A stretch of DNA of 64,000 nt from Sulfurimonas sp. (lineage in GTDB: Bacteria > Campylobacterota > Campylobacteria > Campylobacterales > Sulfurimonadaceae), in NCBI GenBank assembly GCA_027063505.1, contig JAMORO010000068.1:1-64000 (forward strand), given 5' to 3'. The number at the start of each line of letters is the position of its first letter. The first letter of the stretch is position 1. The notes under the pieces are model-generated. The model did no database searches. It saw nothing but the letters and a program-made list of their open reading frames with translations, and was not told where the DNA came from. The position numbers were made by a program, and so were the translations under genes. This document shows positions 2,892 through 29,413 of this stretch, piece after piece.

Positions 2892-3748
2892 GAAAACTAT
2901 TAGCACTTATTGCTTCAGTAGCAATACTTTCGTTTAGTGGATGCTCTTCTAGTGCTGTAGCACCAGAGAACACTTCATCTGGTCTTGAAGGAACAAAAGT
3001 AAGTACCTATTTAGTAGGTGCTTATGTTCCTGTTGATGAAGCAAAATCAAAATTAGAAAATGCTGGTTTTGAAGTTCTTGCAGCTTATGCATCTGTAAAA
3101 AAAGGTACAACAATTGTTTTTACAAATGAAGCACTTAAATCAGAAGCTGCAAAACCTGGTCGTGCTCATGCTGCCGTTATTCGTCTTTTTGTAGATGATA
3201 AAGAGAAAATGATAAGTTTTACTAACCCTGTTTATTTTGGAAAAGCATTTATGCAAGATGAGTATAATCATGCAGTATTTAACACTGCTTTAGAGAGTAT
3301 TAATACAGAGTTTTCTGATCTTAAAGGATCAAAAGATGAGTTAGAGTTTGATAAACTTGCAGGATACCACTTTATGATGAGTATGCCTTATTATGCTGAT
3401 GCAGATGCACTTGGAAAACCAAATGCTACAACTGAAGATGCTGTTAATAAAGCAAAAGCTTACAAAAAAGGGAAAGCTATAGTATTTGAACTTAAACTTT
3501 CTGAAACTAGTACACTTTTAGGTTATGACCTTGGTAAACGTACTAAGAAGTTTGTTAAGAAAATTGGTCGTGCTAATGCAGCTATCTTACCATACTGTGT
3601 AGCTATTGAAAATGGTCAAGCAACAGCATTAAATGCTAAGTATTATATTGCTATATCTTACCCTCTTTTAGATATGGGTGGATTTATGGGTATTGCAACT
3701 GTACCAGGTGCAATTACTAAAGATTTAGAGAAAGCTTTTAAAAAGTAA
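2888..3748 (+). CDS. Lipoprotein, DUF302-related with internal duplication
   Basis: Lipobox FSGCS; repeated GRAHAAVIRLFV / GRANAAILPYCV halves; 4-bp overlap with upstream gene. Confidence 0.55.
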   Translation: MRKLLALIASVAILSFSGCSSSAVAPENTSSGLEGTKVSTYLVGAYVPVDEAKSKLENAGFEVLAAYASVKKGTTIVFTNEALKSEAAKPGRAHAAVIRLFVDDKEKMISFTNPVYFGKAFMQDEYNHAVFNTALESINTEFSDLKGSKDELEFDKLAGYHFMMSMPYYADADALGKPNATTEDAVNKAKAYKKGKAIVFELKLSETSTLLGYDLGKRTKKFVKKIGRANAAILPYCVAIENGQATALNAKYYIAISYPLLDMGGFMGIATVPGAITKDLEKAFKK

Positions 3749-26603: not shown

Positions 26604-27614
26604 ATGTTAGATATATCTAAATATAAAACATACACAAAGGGTTTACTTGCCAGTATTGCAGTAGCTATTGTCGCTAGTATCATTACTCACTTTATCTCTT
26701 TTAGTACAGCAACTGTAGCGATTATTCTCGGAATGATAGTAGGAAACAAATTTTACAACACTTTTCATGCAGAAGATTCTAAATTTAAAAGTGGTGTAAA
26801 GTGGGCGGAAAAAGACCTTTTGATGTTTGCTATCGCACTTATGGGGATAAACCTTAACTTTACTATGCTCGCAAACTTAGGGGTAAAGACTATCTTGATT
26901 ATCGTTTTTGGGATGATGTTTACTATCACTATGGGTATAGTTCTTGGGAAACTCTTTAAACTAAATCCGAAACTCTCTCTAATGATAGGTATAGGAAATG
27001 GTGTCTGTGGTAGTTCTGCCATCGCTGCAACATCAGGTGTAGCAAAAGTACAAAGTAATGATATCGGTATCAGTATAGCACTTGTAAATCTTATGGGAAC
27101 AATAGGTATATTTTTAGCACCATTCTTGGCACATCTCTTAGGGTTCACAGATATTCAAGCAGGAATTTTCACAGGAAATACTCTTCAAGCTGTTGGTCAA
27201 GCAGTTGCTGCTGGTTTTAGTATCTCTGATGAGGCTGGGCACTATGCGACAGTTGTGAAGATGGGAAGAGTTTTACTTCTTGTGCCTCTCGTACTTATCT
27301 TAATCTATGTAGCAAAAAGAGAGAACAAAAAAAATGGTGAAGAGATAGAAGCGAAAGGAAAAGTAGGTGTTCCTTCGTTTATTCTTTGGTTTGTAGGTTT
27401 CTCTGTTGTCGCTTCACTTGGATGGTTACCAAAAGAGGTGGAGACAATTATAGGGACTGTAAGTCACTACATCACGCTTATAGCTATGAGTGCTATCGGT
27501 TTAATGATACACTTTGGAACTATAGTAAAGAGTGCAGGAACAGCATTTAAAGTCTCTTCACTTCTCTTTGCACTACAACTTATGTTTAGTGCTTTACTTA
27601 TAAGTCTATTATAA
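26604..27614 (+). CDS. YeiH/PSE-family putative sulfate exporter
   Basis: FSTATVAIILGMIVGNKFYN, GNGVCGSSAIAATSGV, GNTLQAVGQAVAAG. Confidence 0.85.
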   Translation: MLDISKYKTYTKGLLASIAVAIVASIITHFISFSTATVAIILGMIVGNKFYNTFHAEDSKFKSGVKWAEKDLLMFAIALMGINLNFTMLANLGVKTILIIVFGMMFTITMGIVLGKLFKLNPKLSLMIGIGNGVCGSSAIAATSGVAKVQSNDIGISIALVNLMGTIGIFLAPFLAHLLGFTDIQAGIFTGNTLQAVGQAVAAGFSISDEAGHYATVVKMGRVLLLVPLVLILIYVAKRENKKNGEEIEAKGKVGVPSFILWFVGFSVVASLGWLPKEVETIIGTVSHYITLIAMSAIGLMIHFGTIVKSAGTAFKVSSLLFALQLMFSALLISLL

Positions 27615-27622
27615 TTTTATGG

Positions 27623-27717
27623 TATGATATCTGCGAAACATTGTTTACATTCGCAGGTTGATTACCTGCATGTGGGAATGAAAGCTCAACTGTATTTTAC
27701 AGTTGAGCTTTTTTTTT
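27623..27717 (+). ncRNA. Candidate small RNA (about 85 nt) with own promoter and terminator
   Basis: Extended -10 GGTATGATAT (27621-27630), overlapping hairpins 27631-27656 and 27653-27669, 14-bp perfect terminator stem 27681-27711 plus T-tail. Confidence 0.55.
27681..27717 (+). terminator. Strong Rho-independent terminator
   Basis: AAAGCTCAACTGTA-TTT-TACAGTTGAGCTTT followed by TTTTTT. Confidence 0.9.
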
Positions 27718-27838
27718 GCTAAATTTTTAGTGAAATTGTGGGTTGTACTGGATGGGATCTCTCATAGAGGAGGTACTTGGCTACTTAGCCAAGTTGTTTT
27801 AGCATAAGGAGAGGGTTAATCGCCTCTCCTTATTTTTC
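27718..27838 (+). ncRNA. Second structured RNA candidate ending in a terminator
   Basis: CTTGGCT-ACTT-AGCCAAG (27776-27793), GCTAAA/TTTAGC closing pairing, TAAGGAGAGG/CCTCTCCTTA terminator. Confidence 0.35.
27805..27838 (+). terminator. Rho-independent terminator
   Basis: TAAGGAGAGG-GTTAATCG-CCTCTCCTTA then TTTTT. Confidence 0.8.
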
Positions 27839-27920
27839 ATACTATATACTTATACACTATCAAGTTCTACATAAGGGTGATTGAAGCTGTATTTTTTCTT
27901 TATCATTTTGTAATTTGTAA

Positions 27921-29413
27921 TTATTTTTTTAGAAAAAAAATCGGGCTTACTTTCAGTAAGCGAAGAGCAAGAGATAAAGAGTGCCAATTCTGGTATGAAA
28001 GCAGAAGATGCTAATAAGATAGCTGAAGCATACACTAAGGGTGGAGAAGAAGCTGCTAAGAAGATGGCAGAGTCGTTAAGTGAGGGTGCTAAGCTAGATA
28101 TGAATTTGAGTGCTATTGATGGTGCAGGGATTTTGTCAGGGACTATGGCAGGGGCTAAGACGGCTAGTGATTTAAAAGCGGTTGATGCTCACGGGGGTTC
28201 TGAACAATATATTTCTGATAAGTCTGGTTCCACATATAGTAAAGAAATCACAGAGGCTACTGCTGCTCAATCTTTTGATAAGCCGGATATGATGAATAAA
28301 AAAGCTGGAATAATTATTGAAAGCAGAAGATCTGCAATGGGGGATGCTGCTGCTGAAAAAATAACTGCATCAATGGTGGAGCAAGGGATACTAGAAGAGG
28401 GATCAACATCCAAAGATTTTACAGCCACTACTGGTGATAAAGCAAGAAAGGCTTATGCTCAATCTAAAGCAGGAGCAATGGAGTCTGATGAAAAACTGAT
28501 GATTGATGATAGCAAGGTAAATGTTTCTCAAAATCTAACTAGCGGTAAAGGTGTAGCTACTTTTGATTCGGCTAACACATCCGTAACAGGTACTCAACAT
28601 ACATCTAAAGTGACTGATGCAGCAACAAAGAATTTACAAGATAGTGCAGAAGCAAATGGTTTAAGTCCAGATGAAATCAAGCAGCAGATGGAACAAACAA
28701 AAGCTAATGTAAATGTTGCGAATAAGCTAGAAACAGGATTAGCTGCTACAGTCATTAATGGAAGAGTCGGTAAAGATGGAATCGTAGCATCGGAAGAGAA
28801 TGGAGGAACTAAAGATAGCTCATTCTTAGCCGAACACATTGACGAGATGGCTATTGCTACAGGTGCTACGATGCTAGGTGCAACTGGATTGGCAGGACTA
28901 AATAAATACTCAAAAATCGTGCAACCAGAAAAAATTGCAATGTCTGAAAAAGATATGACAAGCAGAGGTTTTACCCCTAATGAAAATGGTGATATGGTTG
29001 GAAAGAATGGAAATATTGTAACTCAAAAAGATGGCAAGTTTTATGATGAGAGTGGTGATGTAATGAAAAAAGATAATCCAAAATATCAAAATGGCATAGT
29101 TAAGAGAGGATATGATGCGAGCGTTAGTAAGACAGGAGATTTACTTAGTAGTGTTTCTCCATTTACCAAGACCAAAGAACCCTTGGATGGCTCCACTGAT
29201 AGCACCAATCAAAATCAAAATGGCAAAAGCAACGACAGTGGACAAGATAGCCCAAATAATAAAGTTCATAATGACTCCTCAAAAGATAATATTGAAGGAA
29301 AGTCTCCTTCTAAAGATAGTATATCAAAAACGCCAAAAAGTCGCAAGTCTACTTATAACCCTGCAAAACTAATTGAGGCACAGGGGAAAGTAGAACTTTG
29401 GAATGAGTGGTGA
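27921..29413 (+). pseudogene. Probable 5'-truncated remnant of a TraG-like (conjugation mating-pair stabilisation) C-terminal region
   Basis: Open frame extends upstream of ATG 27995 (LFFLEKKSGLLSVSEEQEIKSANSGM) to a stop at 27918; no RBS at 27995; Ala/Ser/Gly/Lys-rich helical C-terminal composition. Confidence 0.4.

Follow-up and report, generated by a model that had tools for sequence, protein, structure and literature searches.

A small RNA gene from a Sulfurimonas species very probably encodes the antitoxin of a type I toxin-antitoxin family, in which the antitoxin lies upstream of its toxin and on the same strand. Judged by sequence comparison, the family belongs to the Campylobacterota and was previously unrecognised and apparently undescribed. 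The gene was found in a window of 64,000 nucleotides (contig JAMORO010000068.1), between a yeiH-type gene (26604-27614, Pfam Cons_hypoth698) and a frame that is open from about 27914. Coordinates of its parts, and of the damaged toxin unit that follows it, are collected in Table 1.

Table 1. Features of the sRNA gene and the adjoining remnant of the putative toxin unit, in window coordinates
Feature	Position	Strand	Basis or remark
Extended -10 promoter element of the sRNA (TGG-TATGAT)	27620..27628	+	Sequence
Arm A of the putative antitoxin sRNA	27631..27652	+	Its ends form stem 1 of the sequence-only reading
Hairpin P2 (GCAGGT-TGATT-ACCTGC)	27653..27669	+	
Arm B	27670..27679	+	Complementary to B' (27758-27765), one mismatch
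sRNA intrinsic terminator, hairpin and T9 (27709-27717)	27680..27717	+	Stem covariation
Conserved G-rich stretch GTGGGTTGTACTGGATGGGA in the putative toxin 5' UTR	27738..27757	+	Family form GTGGGTWGTGTTGGGTGGGA (alignment A1)
B' (TCTCTCAT), partner of arm B	27758..27765	+	Sequence comparison; one U-U mismatch with arm B
Remnant of the toxin Shine-Dalgarno (SD) sequence, AGAGGAGG	27766..27773	+	Alignment with 14 GYL-family loci
Toxin ORF remnant, codons VLGYLAKLF and stop	27773..27802	+	Matches the C-terminus (...ILGYLTKLF, stop) of relatives
3' hairpin/terminator of the toxin unit, loop GTTAATCG	27804..27833	+	Fold, loop analysis

The sRNA gene and its fold

The sequence TGGTATGATAT (27620-27630) carries the extended -10 element that a sequence-only reading of the window had placed after yeiH, with the -10 hexamer TATGAT at 27623-27628. 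Given where this hexamer ends, transcription presumably starts near 27634-27636, a position that agrees with the one given in that reading. From promoter to terminator, the segment 27620-27717 is a gene for an sRNA of about 80 nucleotides, to judge from its sequence, and is presumably transcribed. The 87-nucleotide RNA is predicted to fold at -34.1 kcal/mol, compared with -15.3 kcal/mol in shuffled sequences (z = -7.2), and it ends in the perfect 14-bp terminator stem with a T-tail that had been described.

Conservation and covariation in relatives support the earlier view of an sRNA gene that runs from promoter to terminator and has a conserved structure. Of 63 intact relatives, 62 have a listed -10 hexamer in this position, which in 39 of them is TATAAT, and T9 follows the sRNA terminator in 62 of 63. 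The stems have a covariation score of 0.912 against 0.225 when shuffled, and 17 of 19 pairs have changed on both sides, which are the compensatory changes that the earlier reading looked for in homologous loci. Specifically, both partners have changed in relatives at all six pairs of P2, where 91.6% of cells are paired, and at 11 of 13 pairs in the terminator stem. Among all fetched loci, hairpin-preceded runs of nine T residues are common (99) and runs of ten or more are nearly absent (1). Because of this scarcity, T9 seems to be the longest run tolerated rather than a special conserved signal.

The sequence-only reading had gone further and proposed a switchable leader or regulatory RNA whose two hairpins exclude each other. 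Each of the stems can be drawn as described, stem 1 from CTGCGAA (27631-27637) and TTCGCAG (27650-27656), and stem 2, our P2, from GCAGGT (27653-27658) and ACCTGC (27664-27669). They have GCAG in common and so cannot coexist, but only stem 2 proves to be a real alternative. In the fold ensemble its pairs form with a probability of 0.97-0.99, as opposed to 0.003-0.03 for stem 1, and forcing stem 1 costs 4 kcal/mol. Moreover, given a -10 hexamer ending at 27628, transcription is expected to begin inside the 5' strand of stem 1, which removes at least 3 of its 7 nucleotides. Inverted repeats of 7 bp occur in the same part of only 2 of 63 relatives, which is chance level when compared with 3.8% of shuffled sequences. 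A switch of this kind is therefore scarcely credible, since stem 1 is improbable, overlaps the start site and is not conserved. A riboswitch or leader of a larger downstream gene was likewise rejected, as no adjacent ORF is served.

A family of paired sRNA and putative toxin units

When 135 genomes from the genus were searched at the DNA level, partial matches were returned. These were compared side by side, and 16 sequences (alignment A1) were used to build a covariance model, R1. This model matches 86 of the 135 Sulfurimonas genomes at E <= 0.01, in up to 8 places per genome, some of them tandem. Across the phylum it matches 32 of 397 genomes, in 14 of 68 genera, at E <= 1e-4; on inspection, these include genuine members from at least two further families as well as some chance terminators, which is what L144, L158, L159, L163 and L166 look like. 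Five members (L155, L157, L160, L161 and L164) lie in another family of the order, where the ORFs encode peptides of 28-31 residues of the MDSLNLFIAVIAVLITLFREEIREILLKLKK type. Neighbouring copies of the element at L089, L106, L061 and L082 lie between roughly 110 and several hundred nucleotides apart, each with arms of its own.

Members share a common anatomy. The 5' part has TATAAT and an arm A that varies, then a hairpin whose loop is of the TGATTAC type, arm B and a terminator with T9. The 3' part comprises GTGGGTWGTGTTGGGTGGGA, stretches that complement B and A, a very small ORF and a further hairpin. We read an intact unit as a promoter, an sRNA (arm A, P2, arm B, terminator), the G-rich stretch, B', a segment A' that would lie over the SD and start codon, the ORF and a 3' hairpin, all on one strand. 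Hairpins aside, the G-rich stretch is better conserved than any other part, in the window and in all relatives, and an exact-match genome scan for it returned mostly Sulfurimonas. Viral contigs contain no exact match to this motif and plasmids no match to the window copy, and phage or plasmid cargo was rejected on this ground. No covariance model in Rfam 15 matches the window or eight relatives at gathering score, and weak sub-threshold miRNA and CRISPR matches were taken as chance; one of these, to CRISPR-DR41 at 27848-27876 (26.2 bits against a cut-off of 36), is probably such a case.

In 63 of the 77 fetched matches, the sRNA terminator is followed by a hydrophobic ORF of 16-23 codons. Applied to shuffled tails, the same criterion gives an ORF in 14%, and on the reverse strand it gives none. 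Some of the 14 matches that lack it are terminator-only chance matches (e.g., L071 and L072). The peptides fall into three groups, MLLKxxILLLILGYLTKLF, MYNKLVLIMLILMFVFSIRLY and MFxKLIVVFLIIMVFAPxLH, and in all three it is codon position 2 that varies least (diversity 0.154, 0.145, 0.087). This pattern points to coding selection on a small hydrophobic ORF, as is expected of a type I toxin, and the peptide may well be a membrane-damaging one. The earlier statement that no coding gene is served thus does not hold for the family, and the ORF that was served is broken in the window.

The peptides have no above-threshold match in Pfam or NCBIfam, which also suits an sRNA that regulates a conserved small membrane protein without toxicity. 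We consider this quite unlikely, because the size, hydrophobicity, and multi-copy and tandem occurrence of these ORFs are typical of type I toxins, as are the layered control of translation and the repeated loss of the ORF while the RNA is kept.

The case for an antitoxin includes complementarity that is specific to each pair. In relatives, arm A is antisense to the SD and start codon or to codons 2-8 of the putative toxin mRNA. Its duplex with the toxin start averages -23.3 kcal/mol for cognate partners and -14.1 kcal/mol for non-cognate ones; 50 of 63 such duplexes cover the SD or start codon, and the others lie mostly over codons 2-8. Similarly, the duplex between arm B and B' reaches -10.2 kcal/mol in cognate against -5.2 kcal/mol in non-cognate pairings (59 loci), and the longest Watson-Crick run between the P2 loop and the 3' hairpin loop is 5.5 nucleotides against 4.0. 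For each of the three contacts, none of 20,000 partner permutations reaches the observed mean, in a test that ignores the relatedness of the loci. Whole-RNA cofold energies ranked cognate pairs poorly because self-structure interferes, and arm-level duplexes were used in their place.

Shared descent alone is unlikely to have produced this covariation, given how many independent types of pair occur. At least six have changed together (TGATTA/TAATCA, TGGTTA/TAACCA, TGGTCA/TGACCA, TGATGA/TCATCA, TAACTA/TAGTTA and GGTGAC/GTCACC), and the two sides of TGGTTA/TAACCA are swapped in L060 and L097. The sRNA is thus complementary to the candidate toxin mRNA, as a type I antitoxin should be, and would be expected to pair with it in vivo.

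An additional pairing, between the ORF start and the mRNA tail behind the 3' hairpin, is present in 28 of 28 loci from two peptide groups and absent from the GYL group, to which the window copy belongs; its absence there weighs against the antitoxin reading. The mRNAs of hok and aapA have a long-distance 5'-3' interaction (PMC6733600), and by analogy the pairing in these two groups is as expected of a full-length toxin mRNA that is inert for translation (PMC6733600).

The window copy as a probable orphan antitoxin gene

Alignment with 14 relatives reveals a single gap of about 40 nucleotides between AGAGGAGG and GTACTTGGC in the window, by which the start codon and first codons of the toxin ORF are gone. 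An ATG at 27752 would read MGSLIEEVLGYLAKLF and lacks an SD sequence. Retained are the promoter, P2, arm B, the terminator, the G-rich stretch, the SD sequence and the 3' hairpin, whose loop still complements the P2 loop (GATTA, five Watson-Crick pairs, and longer with G-U pairs). The best downstream duplex of arm A has only -14.7 kcal/mol, the non-cognate level, its target having been deleted, so that arm B and the loops provide the sole remaining contacts. Arm A includes AAACAT, which complements AUGUUU, and shares this with those relatives in which the ORF begins AUG-UUU; it would therefore still appear to be an anti-start segment. From these comparisons, the window seems to hold an antitoxin gene orphaned next to a dead toxin, which lacks its start and N-terminal half.

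This state is not confined to the window. The ORF has been lost and the sRNA kept, with promoter, P2 and terminator, at L047, L048 and L054. The same genome also has a second, intact pair, L070 (contig C16 of G000, 3335-3446, minus strand), with the peptide MITKLIVVFLVFMVFTPYIY and an arm A duplex of -22.5 kcal/mol. Downstream of the toxin remnant, the open frame 27914-29413 has its first ATG at 27995, encodes 472 residues from there and has no Pfam match; it is possibly the 3' part of a gene truncated at its start.

An orphan antitoxin has a precedent in the phylum, NikS/IsoB (PMC8322730). As an extension of the antitoxin reading, the window copy might similarly have become a trans-acting regulator of other genes, a view favoured by the survival of promoter, P2, arm B and terminator when the toxin was lost. 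We regard this as unlikely. A genome search for targets of arm A (TAAACAATGTTTCGC) with at most two mismatches returned 7 sites, its own locus included, against 9 for the control, and an intact cognate toxin elsewhere in the genome was rejected since nothing exceeded the control. Furthermore, a single genome cannot show that the copy has been retained by selection.

Proposed mechanism and relation to known systems

Between the sRNA terminator and the toxin SD sequence, 55 of 63 loci have no listed -10 hexamer, and in four loci T9 runs directly into the G-rich stretch. Because such a hexamer is so seldom present, we favour read-through of the terminator from a shared sRNA promoter as the source of the toxin mRNA, and give this arrangement an even chance. 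The toxin could instead have a promoter that is weak, non-sigma70 or otherwise unrecognised.

We propose that the sRNA and the toxin mRNA would first meet through the P2 loop and the loop of the 3' hairpin, after which arms A and B would pair across the start of translation and keep a membrane-damaging peptide from being made. An mRNA arising by read-through could pair with itself through the same contacts and would therefore be born silenced, to be translated only after processing or loss of the sRNA. On balance, the chances are about equal for and against the fuller picture in which termination of the toxin's own transcript in its leader yields the antitoxin, silencing may operate both in cis and in trans, the arrangement is widespread in Campylobacterota, and the window copy has been reduced to a free-standing antitoxin RNA.

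Could the RNA act in cis alone, as an attenuator of a small-protein mRNA whose pairings all form within one transcript? The two parts share a strand and a single recognisable promoter, and every contact could form in cis. However, promoter, P2 and terminator persist in the copies that are without an ORF (L047, L048, L054 and the window), and wherever the ORF is present a strong terminator with T9 stands in front of it. Arms combined with a loop-loop contact are also what antisense RNAs usually employ in trans. A leader without trans function is thus very unlikely, and we retain the antitoxin as the preferred reading.

Among type I systems of E. coli, ibs/Sib, tisB/istR-1 and zor/orz resemble the present family in their short hydrophobic peptides and translation-blocking antitoxins. 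The Ibs peptide has about 19 residues, and the Sib antitoxin is encoded antisense or divergently. Those of tisB/istR-1 and zor/orz are likewise antisense or divergently encoded (PMC4147584), unlike the sRNA described here, and no Rfam or Pfam match links the loci to them.

In the par system of pAD1 (Fst; RNA I/RNA II), the antitoxin kisses the 3' terminator loop and binds two 5' repeats over the translation start (PMC7472228). The present loci are like par/Fst in combining a predicted 3' loop contact with predicted start-covering contacts and a small hydrophobic peptide (PMC7472228). In contrast, par has convergent promoters, a common bidirectional terminator and direct repeats, whereas here both units lie on one strand, each with a separate terminator, the matching segments are inverted repeats and the peptides have no Pfam match. 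The aapA/IsoA system of Helicobacter pylori shares with these loci the phylum, multiple chromosomal copies, a hydrophobic peptide and, as predicted for two of the peptide groups, a 5'-3' interaction in the mRNA (PMC6733600, PMC8322730). IsoA, however, is encoded on the strand opposite aapA, and the RNA described here lies upstream on the same strand rather than antisense to the toxin gene; the peptides have 16-23 residues, against about 30.

Type III toxIN is arranged on one strand as one promoter, an antitoxin RNA, a terminator with limited read-through and a toxin gene (PMC4147584), and the likeness is in gene order only (PMC4147584). ToxI is a repeat RNA that binds ToxN, a ribonuclease protein, whereas here the RNA has no tandem repeats, is complementary to the toxin mRNA and accompanies a tiny ORF for a hydrophobic peptide.

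Among the open-access papers listed on type I toxins with Sulfurimonas, Sulfurovum or Arcobacter, none describes such loci, which is weak evidence of novelty; in the literature found, only aapA/IsoA and relatives are described as type I systems in the phylum. The family would add a large, multi-copy set of toxin-antitoxin loci to the Campylobacterota and would join the gene order of type III systems with the base pairing of type I. It makes testable the question of whether one terminator sets the ratio of antitoxin to toxin. Finally, the natural series of orphan antitoxins offers material on how an antitoxin outlives its toxin.
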